33,419 nt of DNA from Aquificota bacterium (GCA_015486105.1 WFSI01000020.1:1-33419); one strand, 5' to 3'; positions 616 to 13,037 are shown, counted from the stretch's first letter. Notes: generated by a model not told the origin, from the sequence alone. A program made the numbers and translations.

Positions 616-645
616 AAAAATGCCCGGTCCCTGACGGGACCGGGC
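616..645 (-). terminator. Rho-independent terminator of the hdr operon
   Basis: On the minus strand a perfect 10-bp GC-rich stem (GCCCGGTCCC / GGGACCGGGC, loop GTCA) is followed by ATTTTTAAT. It lies 24 bp past the stop codon of the last operon gene, which sets the 3' end of the eight-gene unit. Confidence 0.85.
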
Positions 646-669
646 CAAAACAACGACCGGGAGAGAAGG

Positions 670-1812
670 TTATGAAGAGGATGGGCAGTGAGTGGTACTC
701 TCTGTGTAGGGTTGTTCCCAGTCTTGGAGCTCCTCCTCCTTGTAGTCAATGAAGGGGATGGGCTCCTCTATGTATCTTCCTGGGACATAGTCAAAAATGG
801 CTTGGGTTTTATCTGCTACCATGGCAAATAAGCGAGATACAGGTACATCATTGGGACATGCATCCTCACAGGTGCCACAGGATACACAAGAAGTACTCAT
901 GTGATTCATTCTTCCTAAGTGAAAAAGGAGGGTGTCGGGTAGGAGCCTTAAAGCTCCTTTCCTTTGAGCCCTCATGAGGTAGTTTTCTGGTGTTACCTTT
1001 AGGGCATCGGAATCGAAGAAACACTCCCTGCAGAAGCAGATGGGACATACCCTCATGCAGTTATGACAGTTTATGCAAGAGTGGAGGGTAGATAGAATAC
1101 CCTGAGGACCAGAGACCTGGGGGCCAAATTCCTTTTGGAAGTAGTTTTCTCTGGCTTCGGTTCTCTCGCTCACCAGTTCTTGGAGGGTTTCTTCTCTCTC
1201 TTTAAGCTCTATTTCCTCTTGGTACTCTAGAGCCCTTAAGGCCTCTTCCCCTTGAGCGGTATGGGCTATGAGATAATGGCATCCCTCAGGGGCTCCTAAG
1301 AAACCCACCTCTATATCCGCCGTATCTCCTGTAAATCTGTTACAGATCTGGCACAAGGGTCTGGTTCCTGAAAGCCTAAGGTGGCCAAGACCTTCTTCCA
1401 GATTGGCTTTCATAAGGGATTTATCACTGTTGATGTATTGCCTCAGGGGATAAGCCCCTGGACAATCAAAGCTTATAGTGAGCAGACCCTCTGGTTTTAC
1501 CTGGTTAAGCTTGATAAGCTCCCTTGCCGCTCTAAGCTCACAGGGGCGGAGAATCACTGCTGTGGGCATCTCTACGGGCCCTCTCTTGGTAAGTTTGGAT
1601 ACTACCCTTCCCCCTTGAACGGGTATGACAGGAGGTAAGGACCAAGCTTCATTTATTATGGAGGGATCCCGGGTAAGGATATGGGCGTAGGATTCGCCTC
1701 CTGGTATTTCCATGGGGATCAACACAGCCTGTACCATTCCCTTTTCCAGGAGCCCCTTCAGTAAACCCCTTAAAGCCTGGCTTCCCTTCCCTTCTCCTTT
1801 TACTGATAGCAT
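670..1812 (-). CDS. FrhB/FdhB-like flavin and iron-sulfur electron-input subunit (second copy)
   Basis: Protein of 380 residues. I chose ATG 1812 over the longer open frame (to 1941) because it has a GAGGAG site just upstream and avoids overlapping the preceding mvhD gene. The N-terminal two thirds resemble the beta-subunit domain of F420 hydrogenase and formate dehydrogenase (FrhB/FdhB), with the RPCELRA motif followed by LIKLNQ. The C-terminal third carries two iron-sulfur motifs: a cysteine-rich CINCHNCMRVCPICFCREC and a classic CVSCGTCEDACP. Family knowledge: such subunits pass electrons between a soluble carrier (F420, NAD(P)H or ferredoxin) and MvhD/HdrA. It is the last gene of the operon, 11 bp after mvhD. 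It shares YVPGR-I-E and LFHLGRM-HM-TSCV with the first operon gene, so the two are paralogs. The carrier it uses cannot be read from sequence. Confidence 0.8.
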   Translation of the reverse strand: MLSVKGEGKGSQALRGLLKGLLEKGMVQAVLIPMEIPGGESYAHILTRDPSIINEAWSLPPVIPVQGGRVVSKLTKRGPVEMPTAVILRPCELRAARELIKLNQVKPEGLLTISFDCPGAYPLRQYINSDKSLMKANLEEGLGHLRLSGTRPLCQICNRFTGDTADIEVGFLGAPEGCHYLIAHTAQGEEALRALEYQEEIELKEREETLQELVSERTEARENYFQKEFGPQVSGPQGILSTLHSCINCHNCMRVCPICFCRECFFDSDALKVTPENYLMRAQRKGALRLLPDTLLFHLGRMNHMSTSCVSCGTCEDACPNDVPVSRLFAMVADKTQAIFDYVPGRYIEEPIPFIDYKEEELQDWEQPYTESTTHCPSSS

Positions 1813-1823
1813 GTTTTTTCTCC

Positions 1824-2252
1824 TCAAGTATCCCAACGCTGGGTGAGGGGGTTGGGCCCCTTTTCTTTGATATGGGCATCGAACTCGTAGGCTGTATCCA
1901 CCAATCTCTTTCCCTCCCCGTGGGCTACCCACCGGAGCCATAGGCGTTCCCCATCCAATCCCAAGGTGTCCAATACCTCTTTCATAACCGCTAAGCGGCG
2001 CCTAGCCCGGAAGTTGCCCAGGTTGTAATGGCAATCCCCCGGATGGCATCCGCTTACCACCATACCGTCAGCCCCTTCGATGAGGGCCCTGAGGACATAT
2101 GCAGGGTCTAAAGCACCAGTACAGACTACTCGGAAGGGGCGTACATTCTCCGGATATTTAAGCCACACGGCCCCTGCTGTTTCCGATCCTCCAGTACCAC
2201 ACCAGGCGCATAGGGCGTAAAGGATTTTGGGGATGAACCCATTCTCTCCCAT
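1824..2252 (-). CDS. mvhD: MvhD/HdrD-type [2Fe-2S] electron-transfer subunit (second copy)
   Basis: Protein of 142 residues, the normal length for the MvhD delta-subunit family that links an electron-input enzyme to HdrA. The ligand cysteines expected for its [2Fe-2S] cluster are present: C15 and C18 (ALCAWCGTGG), C44 (VVCTGALDP), C69 and C74 (SGCHPGDCHY). The start ATG has an excellent AGGAGG site and lies 10 bp after the stop of the tandem HdrA gene. Compared with the first MvhD of this operon it lacks the usual SYAGADLAG-like stretch after the CxxC (here GTGGSETAG), so it has diverged and probably docks on a different partner. The function call is firm at family level; its place in the complex is inferred from gene order. 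Confidence 0.85.
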   Translation of the reverse strand: MGENGFIPKILYALCAWCGTGGSETAGAVWLKYPENVRPFRVVCTGALDPAYVLRALIEGADGMVVSGCHPGDCHYNLGNFRARRRLAVMKEVLDTLGLDGERLWLRWVAHGEGKRLVDTAYEFDAHIKEKGPNPLTQRWDT

Positions 2253-2262
2253 CTCTATCCTC

Positions 2263-5247
2263 CTATATCAACAGGGCGTCTATACTGGGGATCATCTGCT
2301 CTCCCCTGGCATCCCTTAAATAAGCGGCTTCACTGGGACAGGCTACCAAGCAGGCCCCACAGGCATCGCATAGGTAGGGCCTCACCCGGGCTACCCCTTT
2401 GTTCTCGTCAATCTCCCGGGCATAGTAGGGACACACATCTACGCATAGGCCGCATCCCACGCACTTAGATTCCCGTACTGCCGATACGTACATGGCGTTT
2501 GGAGGCGGAAGTTGGGGTTTACCTAAAATGGTTAGAGACCGTCCTGCTGCATCTTTAGCGGTAAGGAGAGCCTCGGTGAAGGAACGGGGTGAATGGGCCA
2601 ATCCTATAGGGAATATGGCGTTGCTGGAGAGCTCCCAGGGTTTCATAAGGCGCTTTATGGCTTCTTCATAGGGACACATACTGGTTTCTGTATCGAAGAA
2701 TCCTGAGGAATCCAGTTTATAATTCAACCCCTGGGCCAAATCTTGATAGTTTTCCTTGTCGGGAACTATGCCTACGGATAGGACCAGTGCCCCTGCCTCA
2801 ATGGTCTCTGAGGCATCCTTCTCTACATCATGGACGAGAACCTCCAGTTTTTCCCCTTTGGCTTTTACCCTGGGGTATTGATCCATGGCAAAGCGCACGA
2901 ATCTAATACCTTTTTCCTGGGCCATCTTTCGGTAGTCTTCTTTGAATCCATATGTGTTGAGGTCTCTGTAGAGGATAGTTACCTCCATCCCTTTTTCTGT
3001 TAGATCCAGGGCGTTTTTTAGTGCCTGGGAGCAACACACTCGACTGCAGTAGGGATGGGCCTTGTTTCTGGATCCTACACACTGGATCATGACTACGGGC
3101 CCCTTGGGCAGGTCCCCCTTGACCAACAGTTCTTCTATCTCCCTCTGGGTGAAAACCCTTTCATCTTTGCCATATAAGAAGGCCCCTTCAGGATTGAAGG
3201 GCTTGGCCCCTATGGAGGGCATAACAATCCCTGCCTGGATCAGCTTGGACTCTTCTCCTGTTTGTATCTCAGCATAAAAGTGGCCTGCGTATCCCCACAT
3301 GTCCTTGACCTGGGCCCCTTTGTACAAGGTGATGTTGGGGTGGTTCTCGACCTTGTTCATAAGCTGGGCTAAGTACCCTGGTATATCATGACCCTCTAAG
3401 TCTTTAGTAAGGGTTTTAGCCAAACCACCCAATTCCCCTTCTTTTTCTATTAAGGTTACTGGAAAGCCCCTTTCGGCTATGGTTAACGCTGCTTCCATGC
3501 CTGCTGCTCCTCCACCTATGACCAGGACAGCACTGTTAAAAGTCTCTGTGGGTGGAGGAGCAGCTTGAGCCTTCTTCACTTTCTCTACCCCGGATGCTAT
3601 GAGGGCCAGGGCCTTTTCCAACATGGCCCCTTTGTTTTCGTGAACCCTGATCACATCTTCTCTAAGCCTCAAAAATTCAGACAAAAGGGGATTCAGGCCA
3701 CCTATCATCACTACCCGCCGGAATTTCAGGAGCTTCTGCAAGGGGGTACAAGCCGCTAACACCACCCTGTTTACTCCTGATGCCTTGATCTTTTCTCCCG
3801 TCTCCTGGATGGTGGGTGGGGTGCAACAACCTTTTATTATTTCTGCATGGGTCACACCTGGAAGGCCTTCCGCTTTCTCCCTTAGGGCCTCCAGATCCAT
3901 ATAGTTATTGAACTCGCCGAAACAGGAGCAAATAAAGACCCCTACCTTGGGTGCTTCACCTGTTATGTCCCTAAGGGGAGGGGGGGGAGAGGGAGCAAAG
4001 TTCTTATTCCCAAGGTATTCCAAGACTTCCGTAGCGGTACCGTACCCTTCCCAAACCGTTTCGGGGTTCCCTTTAGGGCCGGTGAATTCTCCCACGGCAA
4101 ATACCCCTTCCCGGTTAGTCTTACCACAGGTGAAGGGCAGCACTTTACAGAAGCCATGCTCGTCTGCTTCTATTCCCAAGAGGTTAGAGAGTTTCTCCAT
4201 GAGGGTAGGGGGTTTTTGACCTGTGACAAGTATGACCAAATCCTCTTCCAAGTCATGCTCTTGGTTGCCCAAGGAATATCTAAGCTTCAGATTGTTATTA
4301 GAGATCTCCTGGATTTCAATGTCATGGGCTCTTACAATTTCTACTCCCGCCTCTAATGCCTTTTCGAACCACACATAGTGGCCTTTGCCAAAGCCCCTAA
4401 ATTCTCTAAAGAAAACCTTCACCTCTGCATTGGGTAGGAGTTCCTTGGTTCTATAAGCTCGGTAAATGGCAGAGATGGTGGTGTTGTAGTTTTCGTATTC
4501 TACCCCTTGATTGTAATGGGGGGTTACTACGATAGCTATCCTCTTGGGAAGGCTCCCGTCGGAGGGGCGCTCCAAGGAGTTTTTTACAAAGTTAGTGAGG
4601 AGAGATTTCCTTGCCAGATCCGAGGAATTCACCACATTGGGCCACTGGCCGAAGCCAAACTTTGCCAGATCCTTTTCTGTGGGCTCGTCGTATTCCGGGG
4701 CTAAAACGATGGCTCCCACATCCATTTCCATGGTTTCCTCTGTTCTATCCAGCTTCAGACAACCAGTGGGGCATACCTTCTCACACTCTCCACACTTGGT
4801 GCAATGCTCTTCGTCTATAAGGAAGATGTTTTCCCAGGCGATCTCAGGCCGCACGTAGATGGCCTTTCTTTTGCCTTTTTTGTCCTCTACCTCTACAGGA
4901 CAAACATTTATGCAGGCCTCACATTCGGTACAGGCAAAGTTGTTGACGTAATGGTCTTTCTTTTTAATTTTAACCGTAAAGTTTCCTGGTTCCCCAGAGA
5001 CCTCTATCAAATCGGCATTGTAGAAGACCCGCATGGCTCCTAAACCTATAAAGAGACGTTGAGGCATGTGGCCGCATGCCCAGCAAAAGTCTAAGGGGAG
5101 TTGGGCCAGGGCTTGGTTTCTGTATTCATCTACATAAGAACCTCTGTTGAGCATAACGGTCTTGTAACCCATTTTGGCCAAGGCATAGGCTACTCTATAA
5201 CCTGCAAGGTTGGTGCCATAGACCAGAACAGTGCTTGCCCTTTCCAC
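2263..5247 (-). CDS. hdrA: Tandem HdrA-HdrA fusion flavoprotein with a degenerate first half
   Basis: Protein of 994 residues; start is GTG 5247 with a GGAGGTGATC ribosome site. Residues 1-420 are an HdrA-like half whose nucleotide-binding loop has lost the glycine pattern (YGTNLAGYRVAYALA), followed by two ferredoxin-like motifs (CTECEACINVCP at 106-117 and CTKCGECEKVCP at 149-160). After a proline-rich linker at about 418-424 a second HdrA begins: its N-terminal cysteine domain (VGVFICSCFGE, 435-445), an intact FAD loop (VLVIGGGAAGMEAAL, 574-588), the HdrA signature QCVGSR with YCSRVCCSQ (722-741), and two C-terminal [4Fe-4S] motifs (CVGCGLCVDVCP, 929-940; CDACGACLVACP, 960-971). HdrA is the electron-bifurcating flavoprotein of heterodisulfide reductase complexes. 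The first half may be a structural or wiring module rather than a flavin site (inference). BamE-like tandem HdrAs are possible relatives. Confidence 0.85.
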   Translation of the reverse strand: MERASTVLVYGTNLAGYRVAYALAKMGYKTVMLNRGSYVDEYRNQALAQLPLDFCWACGHMPQRLFIGLGAMRVFYNADLIEVSGEPGNFTVKIKKKDHYVNNFACTECEACINVCPVEVEDKKGKRKAIYVRPEIAWENIFLIDEEHCTKCGECEKVCPTGCLKLDRTEETMEMDVGAIVLAPEYDEPTEKDLAKFGFGQWPNVVNSSDLARKSLLTNFVKNSLERPSDGSLPKRIAIVVTPHYNQGVEYENYNTTISAIYRAYRTKELLPNAEVKVFFREFRGFGKGHYVWFEKALEAGVEIVRAHDIEIQEISNNNLKLRYSLGNQEHDLEEDLVILVTGQKPPTLMEKLSNLLGIEADEHGFCKVLPFTCGKTNREGVFAVGEFTGPKGNPETVWEGYGTATEVLEYLGNKNFAPSPPPPLRDITGEAPKVGVFICSCFGEFNNYMDLEALREKAEGLPGVTHAEIIKGCCTPPTIQETGEKIKASGVNRVVLAACTPLQKLLKFRRVVMIGGLNPLLSEFLRLREDVIRVHENKGAMLEKALALIASGVEKVKKAQAAPPPTETFNSAVLVIGGGAAGMEAALTIAERGFPVTLIEKEGELGGLAKTLTKDLEGHDIPGYLAQLMNKVENHPNITLYKGAQVKDMWGYAGHFYAEIQTGEESKLIQAGIVMPSIGAKPFNPEGAFLYGKDERVFTQREIEELLVKGDLPKGPVVMIQCVGSRNKAHPYCSRVCCSQALKNALDLTEKGMEVTILYRDLNTYGFKEDYRKMAQEKGIRFVRFAMDQYPRVKAKGEKLEVLVHDVEKDASETIEAGALVLSVGIVPDKENYQDLAQGLNYKLDSSGFFDTETSMCPYEEAIKRLMKPWELSSNAIFPIGLAHSPRSFTEALLTAKDAAGRSLTILGKPQLPPPNAMYVSAVRESKCVGCGLCVDVCPYYAREIDENKGVARVRPYLCDACGACLVACPSEAAYLRDARGEQMIPSIDALLI

Positions 5248-5261
5248 AGATCACCTCCCCC

Positions 5262-5714
5262 TCACAGGAAAAACTCTCTTTTAACTAGACTGGGACCAAG
5301 TTTTTTGATCTCTTCCGTAAACTCCTTGGCTACTTGGGCGAATTTGGGACCTTCGGAAGCAGCGATCCACGAGAGCTTCACCCGCTCAGGCTCTAACCCT
5401 ATACTTTCCAGTAGTTTCTTCGTAAGAGCCATCTTCCTCCTAGCGTAGTAGTTACCCTTCTGGTAGTGACAATCCCCTGGATGACACCCCGCTACCAACA
5501 CACCATCAGCGCCGTCCAGAAGGGCCTTCAGAATAAACACAGGATCCACCCTACTGGAACACATCACCCTCATGACCCTAAGGTTGGCGGGATACTTTGT
5601 GCGGCTCACCCCTGCTAAATCAGCAGCAGTATAGCTGCACCAGTAACATAGGAACCCCACTATCTTGGGTTCGAATTCCCTTTTCACCTCTGTATCTTTA
5701 TCCCTGTTTTCCAT
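5262..5714 (-). CDS. mvhD: MvhD-type [2Fe-2S] electron-transfer subunit (first copy)
   Basis: Protein of 150 residues, with a charged N-terminal tail of about 17 residues ahead of the conserved MvhD fold. Ligand cysteines are all present: C23 and C26 (GFLCYWCSYTAADLAG), C52 (VMCSSRVDP), C77 and C82 (AGCHPGDCHY). This is the canonical form, closer to archaeal and acetogen MvhD than the second copy. In the operon it sits 34 bp after HdrA-GltD and 14 bp before the tandem HdrA. It therefore probably bridges HdrA to an FrhB/FdhB-like input subunit, since no hydrogenase large or small subunit is encoded nearby. The ribosome site is weaker (AGGGG about 8 nt before ATG) than for other genes of the operon. 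Confidence 0.9.
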   Translation of the reverse strand: MENRDKDTEVKREFEPKIVGFLCYWCSYTAADLAGVSRTKYPANLRVMRVMCSSRVDPVFILKALLDGADGVLVAGCHPGDCHYQKGNYYARRKMALTKKLLESIGLEPERVKLSWIAASEGPKFAQVAKEFTEEIKKLGPSLVKREFFL

Positions 5715-5748
5715 GGCTTAAACCCCTACGCCTTGTTCAACTCAGTTT

Positions 5749-8700
5749 TCACAGGAGCACCCCTTCTAACTCTGAGAAGATTTCCTCGTTGTTGAAGTGT
5801 TTTGTGGTAACCGCCTTGTTGGGGCACGTGGCGGCGCAGAGGCCGCATCCCTTGCATATAGCCTCGTTCACCACACAGATGCCCCGAGCGGGATCGTAGT
5901 CGATAGCCGAGTACATGCAGATCTTTTTGCACTGCTGACAGCCCACGCAGACCTCGGGATCTATATAGGATGTGGCTGCCTCCACCTCAACCTGTCCCCT
6001 CATTATGAGGGATAGGGCCTCTGCAGCTGCTCCTGCTGCCTGGGACACAGTGTCGGGAATATCCTTAGGCCCCTGACAGCAGCCCGCTATGAATACTCCA
6101 TCGCTGGCAGTGGATACGGGGGCCAGCTTGGGGTGGAGTTCTATGAACCACCCATCTTGGTCTTGGGATATACCCACCAGATGGGCTATTTCTTCGGCTC
6201 CATGTGCAGCCTGAAGCCCTACAGATAGGATCACCATGTCTACTGGCACCCTTCTCACCTTTCCTGCCAAGGTATCTTCGGCGACCACTACGAGCCTCCC
6301 ATTTTCCTCGGGAGATAGGGCCACATCCGTGATCTCTGCCACTTTGCCCCTAATGAAGTGGGTGCCTTCTTCCTGAAGGCGGTTGTAAAACTCCTCGTAC
6401 ATCTTTCCCGGTGATCGAATATCGATGTAAAATTCATATACTTCCGCCCCCGTTTTTTCTCTAACAAGGTGGGCAAATTTCATGGAGTACATGCAGCAGA
6501 CCCTGGAACAGTAACGGTTGGTGTTTTCGTCCCTAGACCCCACGCAATGGATGATAGCCACCTTTTCAGGTACCCGACCATCTTTCATCTTTATTTCCCC
6601 TTCGGTGGGTCCAGCGGCGTTGTTGAGCCTCTCAAACTCTATACTGGTGTAGACCTCGGGGAAACGCTTGTAGCCGTATTGTACTAAAGAGGTCGGATCA
6701 AAGGTTTTGAACCCTGTGGCTACCACTATGGAACCTACCTTAACTTCGATCGTCTCTTCCTTCATGTAGTGGTCTATGGCTTGGGCCTCGCAGAGGAGCT
6801 CGCATTGGCGGCACTCGCAGCATCCAGCACAGTCTAAGCACCTCTTCCCCTCATTCACGGCCTCATCTTCTGACATGGGGGCCTCTATCTCCCCGAAGTC
6901 CTTGATACGCTCTTGGGGAAGCCTTTCAGATAACTTAGTGGGAAGGGTGACGGTGAAAGAACGCTTCTTCAACACCTCTTCTTTATCCACGGTTTCAAGC
7001 CAGTGCTCCTCGTAGGGTCTGGCTTTTAGTTCCTCGCCTTCCACGTATCGACGAATATACTCCGACGCCCTTCTTCCCAAACCAATGGCTTCCACTATGG
7101 TGGAGGGTCCTTTAGTGGCGTCTCCACCTGCAAACACTCCTTCTCTATTGGTGGCTAAGGTTTCAGGATCTACCCATAGAGTACCATCCCTGTTGATTTC
7201 CAGGCCCTCCTGTTCCAGCACCTGGGACTCTGGCATCTGTCCGATGGCCAGGATCACGTCGTCAGCAGTCATTTTGAAATTGGATCCTTCAATGGGAATA
7301 GGACGGCGACGTCCTGACTCATCAGGCTCCCCCAACTCCATCTTCACACACTCTACCTCTTTCAGTCTTCCTTTTTCCCCGTGAAAGGCCACGGGATTAG
7401 TAAGGATCTGAATTTTAACCCCTTCTGCTTCGGCAGCTTCTATCTCTTCGGGAAAGGCAGGCATTTCTACCCGGCTACGGCGATAGAGGATAGTGACATC
7501 CTCGCTTCTTAAACGCAGGGCCACCCGGGCGGCATCAATGGCTGAGTTCCCCCCTCCCACCACAAAGACCCTATTACCCAATTTCACTGATTCTCCTGAA
7601 TTGACCCTCTTGAGGAACTTGATGGATGTATGAACGCCTTCTAAGTCCTCTCCAGGTATACCCATTGTTCTATCCTTATGGGCCCCAATGGCTAAGAAAA
7701 GGGCCTGGTAACCCTCTTTAAAGATACCCTCTATGGATTTGCCCCCTTGACCCACAGGGACATTGCACACGATTTCTACACCTGCCTGCTTGATAAATTC
7801 GATCTCTTTATCCACCAGACTATTGGGGAGCCTGTATTCGGGGATAGCGTATCTCAACATGCCCCCTGGTTTTTCTAAAGCCTCAAAGACCGTGACAGGG
7901 TATCCTTGTACTGCCAAGTAATATGCACAGGCCAATCCAGCAGGGCCAGCTCCCACCACGGCTACTTTTTTATCTTCCTTCTTTTCCATGGGTTCCACGG
8001 GCAGCTTCTCCCCTATATTTTGGTAGTACCAGTCGGCTACGAATCGTTTTAAGGCTCTGATCTGGATGTGACCTCCGGCTAGATCACGAGTGCATTCCCT
8101 TTCACAAAAAGCGGGGCATGCCCTACCCAGACTGGCGGGGAATACAACCTTCTCCATGATGAGCTTAAAGGCCTCCTCAAACTTTCCTGCTGATATAAGC
8201 TTCACGTATCCATGGGCGTTTAGCCCTGCAGGACAGGCGTTTCTACATGGAGAGAAACCTTCCTTGTGAATGACAAAGACGTTGGGCACGGCTTGGGGGA
8301 AAGAGCGGTATATGGCAGTTCTTTCCATCATACCGCATTCGAAGTCATTAGGCATGGTTACGGGGCATCCCTTTATGCACTCCGAGCAGCCTGTGCATTT
8401 GTCTTCCAACACGTATCTGGGTTTTCTCTTTATCTTTACGTCAAAGTTGCCTATATACCCTGACACCTCTTCCACTTCACTGTAGGTATAAAGCTTTATG
8501 TTCTCATGTTGGCCCACCGAGACCATCTTAGGGGTTAAGATACAAGCGGAGCAGTCCAGGGTGGGGAAGGTTTTGTCGAACTTGGCCATGTGGCCACCTA
8601 TGCTGGGTTCCCTTTCCACCAAGTAGGCGGTTTTTCCGGCGTCGGCTATTTCCAAGGCCGCCTGCATTCCTGCTATGCCACCTCCTATCACCAAGACGTT

Positions 8701-9138
8701 GGGGTTGATGTCCACTATCCTGGGTTGGAGGGGCTGATGGTGTACTACTCTACGGACGGCAGCTTCCACATAATCTTTGGCCTTTTCGGTGGCTTCCTCC
8801 TCGTCTTCTGTCACCCAGGATACCAATTCCCTGATGCTGGCCATTTGGAAGAGGTAAGGGTTTAACCCTGCTTTCTTGCAAGCGCTTCTGAAGGTTTTTT
8901 CATGCATCCTTGGAGAACAGGAAGCTACCACCACCCTGTTCAGATTGTACTGCTTAATATCATCTATAATGAGGCCTTGGCCGATGTTGGAGCACATGAA
9001 CTTATAGTCCCGGGCTACTGTTACGTGCTCTAATTTAGAGGCGAATTCTACCACTTCTTCCACGTCTACCTTATAGGAGATATTGATGCCGCAGTGGCAT
9101 ATATAAACCCCAACCCTGGGTTCTTCTCTTCTGGCCAT
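5749..9138 (-). CDS. hdrA: HdrA with an inserted GltD-like NAD(P)H-dependent oxidoreductase domain
   Basis: Protein of 1129 residues against about 650 for ordinary HdrA. Order of parts: HdrA N-terminal cysteine domain (VGVYICHCGINI, 9-20); FAD loop (VLVIGGGIAGMQAA, 148-161) with GGHMAKFDKTFPTLDCSACI downstream; first ferredoxin motif CTGCSECIKGCP (248-259). Then, from about residue 285 to 760, comes a complete GltD/NfnB-type module: CRNACPAGLNAHGY (298-311), CPAFCEREC (341-349), FAD loop VVGAGPAGLACAYYLA (394-409), NAD(P)H loop VVGGGNSAIDAARVAL (526-541), and GGDATKGPST (671-680). HdrA then resumes with CAGCCECRQCELLC (770-783), HCVGSRDENTNRYCSRVCC (864-882) and C-terminal clusters CVGCQQCKKIC and CKGCGLCAATCP. 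Family knowledge: GltD-like domains oxidise NADPH (or reduce NADP+). The fusion implies that this HdrA can exchange electrons directly with pyridine nucleotide. Start has an AAGGAGG site. Confidence 0.9.
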   Translation of the reverse strand: MARREEPRVGVYICHCGINISYKVDVEEVVEFASKLEHVTVARDYKFMCSNIGQGLIIDDIKQYNLNRVVVASCSPRMHEKTFRSACKKAGLNPYLFQMASIRELVSWVTEDEEEATEKAKDYVEAAVRRVVHHQPLQPRIVDINPNVLVIGGGIAGMQAALEIADAGKTAYLVEREPSIGGHMAKFDKTFPTLDCSACILTPKMVSVGQHENIKLYTYSEVEEVSGYIGNFDVKIKRKPRYVLEDKCTGCSECIKGCPVTMPNDFECGMMERTAIYRSFPQAVPNVFVIHKEGFSPCRNACPAGLNAHGYVKLISAGKFEEAFKLIMEKVVFPASLGRACPAFCERECTRDLAGGHIQIRALKRFVADWYYQNIGEKLPVEPMEKKEDKKVAVVGAGPAGLACAYYLAVQGYPVTVFEALEKPGGMLRYAIPEYRLPNSLVDKEIEFIKQAGVEIVCNVPVGQGGKSIEGIFKEGYQALFLAIGAHKDRTMGIPGEDLEGVHTSIKFLKRVNSGESVKLGNRVFVVGGGNSAIDAARVALRLRSEDVTILYRRSRVEMPAFPEEIEAAEAEGVKIQILTNPVAFHGEKGRLKEVECVKMELGEPDESGRRRPIPIEGSNFKMTADDVILAIGQMPESQVLEQEGLEINRDGTLWVDPETLATNREGVFAGGDATKGPSTIVEAIGLGRRASEYIRRYVEGEELKARPYEEHWLETVDKEEVLKKRSFTVTLPTKLSERLPQERIKDFGEIEAPMSEDEAVNEGKRCLDCAGCCECRQCELLCEAQAIDHYMKEETIEVKVGSIVVATGFKTFDPTSLVQYGYKRFPEVYTSIEFERLNNAAGPTEGEIKMKDGRVPEKVAIIHCVGSRDENTNRYCSRVCCMYSMKFAHLVREKTGAEVYEFYIDIRSPGKMYEEFYNRLQEEGTHFIRGKVAEITDVALSPEENGRLVVVAEDTLAGKVRRVPVDMVILSVGLQAAHGAEEIAHLVGISQDQDGWFIELHPKLAPVSTASDGVFIAGCCQGPKDIPDTVSQAAGAAAEALSLIMRGQVEVEAATSYIDPEVCVGCQQCKKICMYSAIDYDPARGICVVNEAICKGCGLCAATCPNKAVTTKHFNNEEIFSELEGVLL

Positions 9139-9148
9139 GATGTCCTCC

Positions 9149-9991
9149 TTAAAGGGCCCCCTTAAAAGGTACCAAGAGCTTGCTCAAACCCAGCCTCTTT
9201 TCTCCTATGCCCATGGCTAAGCCCAGGAGCTGAGTAAAATAGACCACAGGGATCTTTTCTATGTGGAGCCTTTCTTGAGGTGCGTCCAGGTTGAACTGGC
9301 ACAGGGGGCAAATAGCTGCTATAAAATGGGCCCCTTTTTGTTTAGCGTCTGTGAGGATCCTTTTTACTAAGGGCTCGCAGGCCTCTTCATGGGCTACCAT
9401 CTGGGCAGCACCACAGCAGGCGGTTCGGGAGCTGAAGTCTACTACTTGGCATCCTAAGAATTCTAAAAAGCGATCTAGAGCTTGGGGCCTTTCAGGATGG
9501 TCTTCATCTTCTACTTGGGGACGGGTGTATTGACAACCATAGTAGGGAGCAATCCTGAAGGATTCCAAGGGATGTACTATCTTTTCTTTCCATGTAGGAA
9601 GGATTTCAGGGTCCAGGTAGTAGTCCAAGAGGTGTTTCACCTTTACCTTGCCCCCGTATCTTTTGCCCTCTTCGGCCAGGGCCTTGTTCACTTTATCTTT
9701 TACATCTTCTTCATCTGCCAAAATGTAACGGGCCTTTCTGAGAGTGGCGTAACAGGCATTGCAGGGAGTGATGATAATTTCTGCTCCCATGGCTTCTGCT
9801 ATAGCCATAATCCGGGCTGGTAAGACCAGGGCTATCAGCTCGTCTAAGCTGAAGTAAGCCGTTGCTCCACAGCAGTTCCAATCTTCTACTTCAGGGATAG
9901 ATAAACCTAAAGCCGCTAAGGTAGCCCTTATGGATTCCTCATATCCTGCTGCGCTTTTCAATGTACACCCGGGATAAAAGGCGTATTTCAT
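9149..9991 (-). CDS. hdrB: HdrB, heterodisulfide reductase catalytic subunit (two CCG domains)
   Basis: Protein of 280 residues, normal HdrB length. Both CCG domains are complete: first C9, CC at 40-41 (WNCCGATAYFS), C77 and C80 (CNAC); second C153, CC at 192-193 (ACCGAAQMVAHEE), C228 and C231 (CPLC). In methanogen HdrB these cysteines hold the two non-cubane [4Fe-4S] clusters that split the CoM-CoB disulfide. In bacteria without these coenzymes the natural substrate is usually unknown. The start ATG overlaps the hdrC stop (ATGA) and has a GGAGGAGC site, so the two are translationally coupled. All ligands are intact, so an active disulfide-type site is expected. It is the only HdrB in the operon, serving two HdrA paralogs. 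Confidence 0.92.
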   Translation of the reverse strand: MKYAFYPGCTLKSAAGYEESIRATLAALGLSIPEVEDWNCCGATAYFSLDELIALVLPARIMAIAEAMGAEIIITPCNACYATLRKARYILADEEDVKDKVNKALAEEGKRYGGKVKVKHLLDYYLDPEILPTWKEKIVHPLESFRIAPYYGCQYTRPQVEDEDHPERPQALDRFLEFLGCQVVDFSSRTACCGAAQMVAHEEACEPLVKRILTDAKQKGAHFIAAICPLCQFNLDAPQERLHIEKIPVVYFTQLLGLAMGIGEKRLGLSKLLVPFKGAL

Positions 9992-10533
9992 GGTTGCTCC
10001 TCCAGTTCCCTGGCCTTTTCTATCACCTTTTTGAACCCCTGCAGGTTCTGGAGAGGCTCCACCTTAAATTCCATGCGGCCTTTAGCCAGTAGTTTCAGTC
10101 CTAAGGAGACGTTCCTAAAGGCATCGAAAGGCACCTTCATATAGTATTTCTGCATCATCTTCAGTTCTGAGAGCCTCCCTTTCTCTTCCATCGCCTCTTT
10201 GAAGGCCTGATACACATAAGCCGATTTTTCCTTGGGGGTGTAACCCTGGGCCTGGGCCAGGCGTTTTAGGGCATACATAATGTCAGTGATCTTGATTCCC
10301 CGTGGGCAACGGACAGTACAGAAATAACAGGAGGCACAGATCCAACAGGTATTGGAAGAGAAGACCTGTTCAAAATCTCCCCCTTTAGCCAAGGCAAAAA
10401 GTTTTCTGGGGCCATAGTCCATAATTTGGGCCATGGGACAAGAACCAGTACAGGTGCCACACTGGATGCACTTAAGGATTTGCTCTCCCCCTGGCATCTC
10501 TAACAGTTTCTCCAAAAGCCCTTTTGTTTCCAT
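9988..10533 (-). CDS. hdrC: HdrC, heterodisulfide reductase iron-sulfur subunit
   Basis: Protein of 181 residues with the two [4Fe-4S] motifs of HdrC: CIQCGTCTGSCP (22-33) and the HdrC-specific CWICASCYFCTVRCP (63-77). HdrC carries electrons from HdrA to HdrB. There are no membrane segments, so this is the soluble HdrABC type rather than HdrDE. The ribosome site GGAGGAATAG overlaps the end of the preceding FrhB/FdhB-like gene, leaving only 2 bp between the genes. The 3' end overlaps hdrB by 4 bp. Confidence in the family is high; the physiological partner is inferred. Confidence 0.92.
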   Translation of the reverse strand: METKGLLEKLLEMPGGEQILKCIQCGTCTGSCPMAQIMDYGPRKLFALAKGGDFEQVFSSNTCWICASCYFCTVRCPRGIKITDIMYALKRLAQAQGYTPKEKSAYVYQAFKEAMEEKGRLSELKMMQKYYMKVPFDAFRNVSLGLKLLAKGRMEFKVEPLQNLQGFKKVIEKARELEEQP

Positions 10534-10535
10534 AA

Positions 10536-11621
10536 CTATTCCTCCACCTCAGAAAACTCTACGGTTCTGTAAATGGTGAGGGGCAACTCTTCTTGGATGC
10601 TCCGCCCAGGGACATACCCAAAGAGTTCCTGCAGGTCTCTTCCCACTGCTTTAAAGACTTGAGACACAGGAATACCTGCGGGACAGGCATCTTCACACAT
10701 ACCGCACGCCACGCAGGAAGTAGCCATGTGGGTCATTCTTCCTAAATGGAAGAGTATAGTATCCATGGGCACTCTTAAGGCCTTTTTTTTATCCATTCGC
10801 ACGCTATAGCTTAAGGGTTCATAGTCAAAGGTAGCTGACTCAAAGAAACAATCCTTGCAGTAGCAAATAGGACACACGTGAGAACAACAGTGGCACCCTA
10901 TGCACTTGCCGAAGACCTCCAAGAGTCCTCCTATTCCTTTTACTTCTGTTTTTATTGTTTCTGTAAGTTGTGTTCTTTTCTCCAATCTACTTTTCAGAAG
11001 TTCCTGGGAAGCGAAGGTGAAAACGTCTCCATCGCTAAGATCTAATCCTACGCCCTTTGCCAATGCTAAGCCTTCCTCCGTGAGAAAGGCCAGCTGGGGT
11101 TTGTCTCTGCCCAGCAAGGAAACCACCACATCGGCTCCTATGGGTTGGAATAGATCGCATCCTTGGCAAACGGGCCTTAAATCAGGGGGTATCTCTCCCT
11201 TCTTTAAAGCTCTAAAATAAGAATCTAAAACAAGATCACCTTTTTCCTTCGTCATTTTGGTTAAGGGGTAAACTCCCCCACATTCAACGCCGATGATATA
11301 AAGATTCTCTCTATGGGCTTGATCCAGTTTCACCAGCTCTACAAAGGCCCTTAACTCACACGGTCTTAGTACAACTGCCAAAGGCTTTGAGGTAGGTTTC
11401 TCCATGGTGAGCCGGGAAAGAGCTTTTCCCGCATTGGCGGGCATAAAGGGGAAAAGGGGTGCCATACCTTCTGTTTCTCCGCCCCTGGGTATAAGAGCAT
11501 AGGAGACTTTTGATGGCTCCTTCAGAAATTTCAGGGCCATCACTCCCTCCACAAGTCCTTGCTCTAAAATAGAAATGAGAAAGGCATTAAGATCTTGGGG
11601 TGCTTTCGCCACTTTGGCCAT
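10536..11621 (-). CDS. FrhB/FdhB-like flavin and iron-sulfur electron-input subunit (first copy, operon leader)
   Basis: Protein of 361 residues starting at ATG 11621 (MAKVAKAPQDLNAFL), which has a GGGGGATT site. The frame stays open to a TTG at 11693, but that TTGACA is the -35 box of the operon promoter, so the longer version is rejected. Domains: FrhB/FdhB beta-subunit domain with RPCELRA and LVKLDQ motifs, then CIGCHCCSHVCPICYCKDC and CVACGMCEDACP iron-sulfur motifs, then a YVPGRSIQEE tail. It is a paralog of the last operon gene. Members of this family bind FAD and connect F420, NAD(P)H or ferredoxin to Hdr or to a formate dehydrogenase; here no catalytic FdhA or hydrogenase is adjacent. 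Which carrier it uses is unknown. Confidence 0.8.
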   Translation of the reverse strand: MAKVAKAPQDLNAFLISILEQGLVEGVMALKFLKEPSKVSYALIPRGGETEGMAPLFPFMPANAGKALSRLTMEKPTSKPLAVVLRPCELRAFVELVKLDQAHRENLYIIGVECGGVYPLTKMTKEKGDLVLDSYFRALKKGEIPPDLRPVCQGCDLFQPIGADVVVSLLGRDKPQLAFLTEEGLALAKGVGLDLSDGDVFTFASQELLKSRLEKRTQLTETIKTEVKGIGGLLEVFGKCIGCHCCSHVCPICYCKDCFFESATFDYEPLSYSVRMDKKKALRVPMDTILFHLGRMTHMATSCVACGMCEDACPAGIPVSQVFKAVGRDLQELFGYVPGRSIQEELPLTIYRTVEFSEVEE

Positions 11622-11664
11622 ATCCAATCCCCCTAAAAAGCCTATTGGAGCACTTTCTTGAGGT

Positions 11665-11693
11665 TTTATAATATTCGAATATTCTAATGTCAA
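11665..11693 (-). promoter_or_regulatory. Strong sigma70-type promoter of the hdr operon
   Basis: On the minus strand TTGACA (11693-11688), a 17-bp spacer, then TATAAA (11670-11665). The predicted start is near 11658, giving a leader of about 37 nt that contains the GGGGGATT ribosome site for ATG 11621. Six of six bases match the -35 consensus, and five of six the -10. Confidence 0.8.
11666..11687. promoter_or_regulatory. Palindromic operator candidate inside the hdr promoter spacer
   Basis: A perfect 14-bp palindrome AATATTCGAATATT (11670-11683) extends to 22 bp with one mismatched pair (69/84), ending TTA...TAA. It fills the spacer and overlaps the -10 box, an ideal position for a repressor. 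The sequence does not match an operator that I can name with confidence, and no regulator gene is adjacent. Confidence 0.55.
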
Positions 11694-11946: not shown

Positions 11947-11966
11947 CTCTTTACAGTAAGGTGAAG

Positions 11967-13037
11967 ATGGGCAAAAAGGAGTTTATTCCCAAGTGGATTG
12001 CCTGGGAGATTACGGGCAGGTGTAACCTGAACTGCATCCACTGTCGTTCCGCCTCCAGTGTCTCCTCCGATGAAGGGAACTTCACACTGGAGAAGGCCCG
12101 ATGGCTTATAGATGAAATCATTAGTTTTTGTAGCCCCTCCGTGGTCCTTACCGGTGGTGAGCCACTGCTCAGACCCGACGTCTTTGACATAGCTAAATAT
12201 GGCACCGAAAAGGGGCTTCGTATGTGTATGGCAACCAATGGCACCCTGGTAACCACCGATGTATGCCAGAAGATCAAGGACTCGGGCATCAAAATTGTCT
12301 CCTTAAGCTTAGACGGATCCACTTCCGAGATCCACGACGATTTCAGAAAGCAGCCTGGGGCCTTCGAAGCTACAGTAAAAGCCGCTAAACTTTTCAAAGA
12401 ACAAGGTATAGAGTTCCTCGTCAACTCCTCCTTCACCAAACGCAACATCCACGACGTGGAAAACATATATGAGCTGGCCAAATCCTTGGGAGCCACGGCC
12501 TGGTACCTCTTCATGATTGTGCCTGTGGGACGGGGGAAAAATGTTTTATCCGAGCTCATTGATGCCGACCAGTACGAAGAGGTGCTGCGCTGGCACTATA
12601 ACTTGGAGAAGCACGAAAAGGAGATGCTGGTGAGGCCCACCTGCGCCCCCCACTACTACCGGATATTCAGCCAGATGGCCCGGGAGGAGGGGGAGTCCCT
12701 GGAGCGCAGAAGCCTTAAGTTCTCCACAGGGGGGGCCAAGGGATGCGTAGCTGCCCAGTTTATTGCCTTCATAGATTGCCACGGAGAGGTAAAACCCTGC
12801 AGCTACTTTCCCCTCTCAGCGGGGAACGTCTTCAAAGAAGGTTTCAAAGAGATCTGGTACAACTCTAAACTCTTCAACGAGCTGAGGGATTTTAAGTCAT
12901 ACAAGGGGAAATGCGGCGTTTGCGAATACCTGCATATCTGTGGGGGATGCCGAGCCCGGGCCTACGCTTACTACGGCGACTACTTGGCCGAGGAGCCCCA
13001 CTGTAACTATGTGCCCATCAGGATAAAGCGGGATTGA
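11967..13037 (+). CDS. ahbD: Radical SAM/SPASM protein, AhbD (NirJ2)-type heme b synthase
   Basis: Protein of 356 residues; ATG 11967 is preferred over GTG 11961, which lies inside the AAGGTGA ribosome site. The radical SAM cysteines CNLNCIHC (19-26) are followed by [13 protein letters not shown] and then by PVGRGK and TCAPHYYRI, segments I recognise from AhbD/NirJ2. The C-terminal SPASM-like part has [21 protein letters not shown] and [18 protein letters not shown] with EEPHC. Family knowledge: AhbD decarboxylates the propionates of iron-coproporphyrin III to vinyl groups in the siroheme-dependent heme pathway of sulfate reducers and archaea. The other ahb genes are not in the window. Alternatives are AhbC or NirJ1; the sequence looks closest to AhbD. 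It is divergent from the hdr operon. Confidence 0.72.

Follow-up and report, generated by a model that had tools for sequence, protein, structure and literature searches.

A conserved eight-gene Hdr operon with two HdrA scaffolds and two FdhB-type arms in a bacterial lineage that is uncultured and probably hydrothermal

An operon of eight tightly packed genes, kept in the same arrangement across an uncultured bacterial order that is probably hydrothermal, may encode a soluble two-armed Hdr complex that works by flavin-based bifurcation or confurcation, a reading whose chances we regard as even. Such a complex would most likely join NADPH (through GltD), the donors of the two arms, ferredoxin, and a disulfide (at HdrB). 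What the sequences show directly is which genes are present, how well they are conserved, which motifs were gained or lost, and that searches for F420 synthesis genes came up empty; that the subunits assemble, which cofactors they bind, how and in which direction electrons flow, the preference for NADPH, and the substrates are inferred. The component parts are familiar from methanogens and acetogens, and their combination here is uncharacterised. Tandem and GltD-inserted HdrAs are widespread, and here the two kinds stand together in a single conserved two-arm set; it is a test case for the number of donors that an Hdr complex can join and for an FrhB/FdhB arm working without F420.

The operon lies in a window of 33,419 nucleotides (the whole stretch of DNA analysed; GCA_015486105.1 WFSI01000020.1:1-33419) from a 1.9-Mb MAG (94% complete, 5% contaminated). 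Labels of close relatives conflict (Aquificota for isolate B14_Guay1, Thermodesulfobacteriota for Dive96, and "bacterium"), and none of the 98 relatives returned was a same-class or same-phylum genome outside the order; the host cannot be placed in Desulfobacterota, where a sequence-only reading had suggested looking for the same gene order.

Operon structure and conservation

The genes lie on the minus strand from 11621 or 11693 down to 670 (Table 1), in the order FrhB1, HdrC, HdrB, HdrA-GltD, MvhD1, tandem HdrA, MvhD2, FrhB2, with gaps of 2 to 34 nt and one 4-nt overlap, and each is supported by Pfam and NCBIfam profile matches. Gene calls and strong family assignments agree with the composition, order, and strand of the sequence-only reading, which had also placed one MvhD after each HdrA, taken the first and last genes for paralogs (they are 37% identical), and noted the lack of FdhA and hydrogenase among the eight genes. 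Its promoter-to-terminator unit held at one end: a terminator-like hairpin follows frhB2, but promoter-like sites were fewer than chance (5 found, against 10.6 expected in shuffled sequence).

Table 1. Features of the eight-gene operon, in window coordinates
Feature	Position	Strand	Basis
FrhB1, FdhB-type arm protein	10536..11693	-	Weak PF04432 and Fer4_8; PDB relatives; fold match
HdrC, two [4Fe-4S] motifs	9988..10533	-	TIGR03290 (E 8e-25), under curated cut-off
HdrB, two complete CCG motifs	9149..9991	-	PF02754 twice; Cys positions
HdrA-GltD, 1129 aa, "type III"	5749..9138	-	Profiles; alignment; GltD Rossmann motif
MvhD1, [2Fe-2S] linker, 5 Cys	5262..5714	-	PF02662 (E 1e-57)
Tandem HdrA, 994 aa, "type II"	2263..5247	-	Two cores; alignment of halves
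MvhD2, [2Fe-2S] linker	1824..2252	-	PF02662 (E 4e-38); 45% identical to MvhD1
FrhB2, FdhB-type arm protein	670..1812	-	PF04432 (E 2e-12); PDB relatives; fold match
Intrinsic terminator-like hairpin and T tract	622..645	-	10 pairs, 9 G-C

The start of frhB2 is the ATG at 1812, not 1941; the ATG further upstream falls within mvhD2. FrhB1 may begin at a TTG (11693) or at an ATG 24 codons into that frame (11621). Residues 1 to 24 have pLDDT <50 in the predicted model, and same-family orthologues align from residue 25; the orthologue from the same genus aligns from residue 1, which counts for the TTG. Most of the window's other genes serve housekeeping or general metabolism, and with such neighbours and unconserved flanks, hints of function from adjacent genes were dropped. 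The divergent neighbour (11961-13037, plus strand) resembles the radical SAM heme b synthase AhbD (430 bits, under the 500-bit cut-off).

All eight genes are intact and in the same order in two relatives (G001 and G002); a third (G006) holds seven of them starting at a contig edge, and five more (G003, G004, G005, G007, and G008) hold fragments consistent with that arrangement. Gene order is thus identical in every complete relative within the order, at protein identities of 50 to 93% (70 to 93% to same-genus G001, with dN of 0.05 to 0.20 and synonymous sites saturated). Genes flanking the operon differ between families of the order, so the association goes beyond chance. The frhB2 gene is broken into two reading frames in two of these MAGs, G004 (L045:4028-5232) and G005 (L047:109-1276), probably by assembly or sequencing error.

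A search of gene neighbourhoods, proposed with Desulfobacterota in mind, recovered the eight-gene order within the host's order; in one Desulfococcus MAG the components are arranged differently. This locus, L066 (Desulfococcus sp. 4484_241 MAG), is the nearest gene set outside the order, with a tandem HdrA (55% identity), two MvhDs, FrhB1 and FrhB2, HdrC, HdrB, and a one-core HdrA, but in another gene order and with no GltD insertion. Its one-core HdrA is ~70% identical to HdrA-GltD on both sides of the insert; GltD was therefore either gained here or lost in L066. That the set recurs in a different gene order suggests selection on the set rather than on its order. Among 88 loci with a reading, 86 have a tandem HdrA (39 of these with at least one FrhB), and two FrhBs, two MvhDs, and HdrB occur together in seven, one of them from this order. 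One further cluster (G031) combines HdrA-GltD, MvhD, FrhB, tandem HdrA, HdrC, HdrB, and a gene resembling HdrD.

HdrA scaffolds, HdrBC, and FrhB arms

The features of an HdrABC-type system are present: an HdrA FAD core with N-domain cluster, HdrC with two [4Fe-4S] motifs, and HdrB with two CCG motifs. HdrB, which had been proposed as the acceptor-side subunit, is complete (C9, C40-C41, and C77-C80; C153, C192-C193, and C228-C231); its profile scores are 172 bits for a fumarate-reductase subunit model and 170 for HdrB, both under cut-off. There is one HdrBC for the two HdrA genes. The host encodes about five CCG-domain proteins, HdrB included.

HdrA sequences were aligned to PDB 8rvu, with numbering converted to that of 5ODC by an offset of 8. 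HdrA-GltD retains the N-domain Cys, Cys197, E356, K409, and the C-terminal ferredoxin; GltD (about residues 295 to 705) interrupts the inserted-ferredoxin domain of this one-core HdrA, as in type III. Entry of NAD(P)H through GltD, as had been suggested, agrees with a pyridine-nucleotide motif, GGGNSA (of GXGXXA form) plus YRRSR, for which we predict NADPH; GXGXXA (NADP) has been set against NAD-type GXGXXG (PMC12054007), and the archaeal type III HdrAs of that study have GXGXXG, unlike HdrA-GltD. Elsewhere in the host genome, the complex I operon includes a 1025-aa fusion of NuoF with a GltD/NfnB-like domain (L152:13340-16414, minus strand; G000:C93), another GltD-based NAD(P)H module.

The tandem HdrA has two TrxR/FAD cores of the complementary type II kind. 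Its N-half carries Cys197 and the inserted ferredoxin and lacks the N-domain, C-terminal ferredoxin, and E356/K409; its C-half carries the N-domain, E356/K409, and C-terminal ferredoxin and lacks Cys197 and the inserted ferredoxin. The halves are complementary in this way throughout the 94 tandem HdrAs (from the fetched loci, a few genomes counted twice), in which the N-half has the inserted ferredoxin and, in 77 of 94, Cys197. E356 and K409 are published markers of bifurcating HdrA flavins (PMC9430772); both are present in HdrA-GltD and in the tandem C-half, and neither in the tandem N-half. Most tandem HdrAs retain them in both halves. An N-half Tyr at K409 occurs in ten rows, which are exactly this order and L066, the two positions being mostly Ala and Tyr; this loss is new, and among the fetched loci confined to those genomes. 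It offers a natural mutant for the bifurcation signature.

FrhB1 and FrhB2 each have the four FrhB-cluster [4Fe-4S] cysteines and two further C-terminal [4Fe-4S] motifs. Their best sequence relatives in the PDB are FdhB/ElpB of the Fdh-Hdr and Elp-Hdr complexes, and their predicted structures match 7bkb_E/8rvu_E (FrhB1; TM 0.61 to 0.64) and 8rvu_E (FrhB2; TM 0.70), ElpB being nearer to FrhB2 than any other protein of solved structure. In the arms the flavin/F420 loop has changed: FrhB1 is missing much of it and therefore may carry no flavin. In a tree, the FrhB1 and FrhB2 clades (support 100/99 and 99/94) each hold this order, L066, and Cloacimonadota, so that the pair recurs together in three lineages; the placement of Archaeoglobus within the FrhB1 clade, on a branch 5.7 long, was disregarded.

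No further MvhD or FrhB domain was found by profile search in the host genome outside the operon, so the host apparently has no HdrABC system besides this one; because FrhB1 itself falls under the Pfam cut-off, a divergent FrhB at another site might have escaped detection. CofD and CofE (F420 synthesis) were found in none of nine genomes of the order, with positive search controls, and the FrhB arms therefore probably do not use F420. Above cut-off the host has neither a dedicated FdhA nor a NiFe large subunit, its only matches being NuoG and NuoD of complex I; some other genomes of the order do carry a molybdopterin oxidoreductase or NiFe large subunit. DsrC as a partner of HdrB was rejected (no DsrC found in genomes of the order, no sulfite reductase domain in the host), as was a Wood-Ljungdahl/MetF link (no CdhC (ACS) found in genomes of the order). 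These absences are soft because the MAGs are incomplete.

Proposed electron routes and alternatives

We propose that HdrA-GltD acts as a homodimer or together with the tandem HdrA, and that its flavin with E356/K409 would split electrons, one branch leading to HdrC-HdrB (a disulfide at high potential) and the other to the inserted ferredoxin, at which GltD may replace or supplement ferredoxin with NADP(H); NADPH could instead be a mid-potential input rather than an acceptor. The tandem HdrA would be a pseudo-dimer within one polypeptide, having a single arm and a single inserted ferredoxin domain, that of the N-half, as the putative ferredoxin site. By analogy with the solved Elp-Hdr geometry, the flavin adjoining arm 2 would be that of the tandem N-half, which, its bifurcation residues lost, may do no more than pass electrons on to ferredoxin. 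As flavo-iron-sulfur proteins of the F420 type, the arms would now serve a donor other than F420; the two further distinct carriers that the sequence-only reading assigned to them are putative. Each HdrA gene supplies one pair of N- and C-terminal domains of the arm type, matching the two MvhDs and two FrhBs.

Tentatively, the eight proteins could make up a single asymmetric complex, a central redox hub of two FdhB-type arms (derived from F420 enzymes but with non-F420 donors), two HdrA scaffolds, and one HdrBC, in which one HdrA would be linked to NADPH and the other, with its de-bifurcated flavin, to ferredoxin; the lineage in question lacks F420 synthesis and, in the host, hydrogenase and formate dehydrogenase. 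It is also possible, if doubtful, that one transcript encodes two separate machines: a bifurcating complex of HdrBC, HdrA-GltD, MvhD1, and FrhB1, and a donor-ferredoxin complex of tandem HdrA, MvhD2, and FrhB2. HdrA-GltD has all features for a homodimer, the tandem HdrA brings along a partner half of its own, and other lineages combine tandem HdrA, MvhD, and FrhB with different HdrA partners, but there is only one HdrBC, the eight genes stay together across the order, and L066 holds the same components, minus GltD, in a different order.

Retention of E356 and K409 in HdrA-GltD and the tandem C-half makes it improbable that the HdrA flavins serve as simple relays in a non-bifurcating NADPH:disulfide (or thiol:NADP) oxidoreductase, although the tandem N-half flavin lacks both residues and such HdrA complexes do exist, according to a passage of PMC9430772 that cites Appel 2021. 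Least probable is an F420-dependent complex, both arms oxidising or reducing F420, of the kind represented by Elp-Hdr and the HdrA-FdhB clusters of archaea. F420-active FdhB/ElpB are indeed the nearest PDB proteins to the arms, by sequence and by fold, but the altered flavin/F420 loop and the missing CofE and CofD argue against it, and after the searches for these two genes it was rejected as the main reading.

Relation to known Hdr systems

Among the closest known systems is Elp-Hdr of Methanothermobacter marburgensis (ElpABC-HdrABC, PDB 8rvu), in which electrons travel from ElpB by way of MvhD-like ElpC to the flavin in the HdrA of the other protomer, the arm is mobile and built with the HdrA N- and C-terminal domains, and an FdhB-like protein plus MvhD feed HdrA with no formate dehydrogenase activity (PMC12350162). 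The same protein types occur here. Elp-Hdr, however, is F420-dependent and has ElpA, a symmetric HdrA dimer, and neither GltD nor tandem HdrA, whereas the operon has two different arms, two different HdrAs, no ElpA homologue among its eight genes, and no CofE/CofD in nine genomes. ElpA is part of the arm in the M. marburgensis structure, and with no ElpA/FdhA homologue here arm attachment therefore differs. Nor does the operon encode the FdhA of Hdr-associated formate dehydrogenases, for which NuoG is the only match in the host.

HdrCBA-MvhD-MetVF of Moorella thermoacetica and Sporomusa ovata has a tandem HdrA, and the GltD-inserted HdrA of M. thermoacetica oxidises NADH (PMC9430772), which among experimental results comes nearest to the GltD part. 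Tandem HdrA, GltD insertion (M. thermoacetica), HdrBC, and MvhD are shared; M. thermoacetica has a single tandem HdrA that includes GltD, with MetVF and no FrhB, whereas GltD here lies in the one-core HdrA and MetVF is absent from the eight genes. Several lineages have long tandem HdrAs (1476 to 1528 aa; L057, L061, L080, L121, and L122) with GltD within the N-half, resembling the arrangement described for M. thermoacetica.

In archaea, ANME-1 HdrA9-11 have a GltD/NfnB insertion in the HdrA ferredoxin domain, and tandem HdrAs show Cys197/N-domain complementarity (PMC9012536, PMC12054007); some ANME-1 clusters have FdhB without FdhA (PMC9012536). The present tandem HdrA fits the heterodimer logic of fused HdrA halves, but the half bearing the N-domain comes second, not first as in ANME HdrA3/4 (PMC9012536). 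Type II and III HdrAs of archaea are without biochemistry (PMC12054007), and neither ANME paper describes the eight-gene set. The building plan is thus not new, since tandem and GltD-inserted HdrAs and FrhB/FdhB-Hdr without formate dehydrogenase are known in archaea; new are the exact eight-gene set and the FrhB1/FrhB2 pair common to the order, one Desulfococcus MAG, and Cloacimonadota. The sequence-only reading knew of no characterised complex of this composition, and we found none described in the open-licence literature.

FlxABCD-HdrABC is a soluble NAD(P)H-linked Hdr system with MvhD-like FlxD. No FlxA/HydG-like FAD-NAD(P) reductase occurs among the eight genes or in loci L064 and L066, and pyridine nucleotide access would be through GltD instead. 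Related clusters of archaea and Cloacimonadota do encode HydG-like proteins: those of Archaeoglobus, of Lokiarchaeota, and of part of the Cloacimonadota combine shorter FrhB/AsrA-like proteins with a HydG-like reductase for NAD(P), which makes a Flx-like arm, and tandem HdrA is accompanied by a HydG/AsrB-like NAD(P) reductase next to short FrhB/AsrA-like proteins in L067, L072, L075, L089, L094, L108, L092, L115, and L122.
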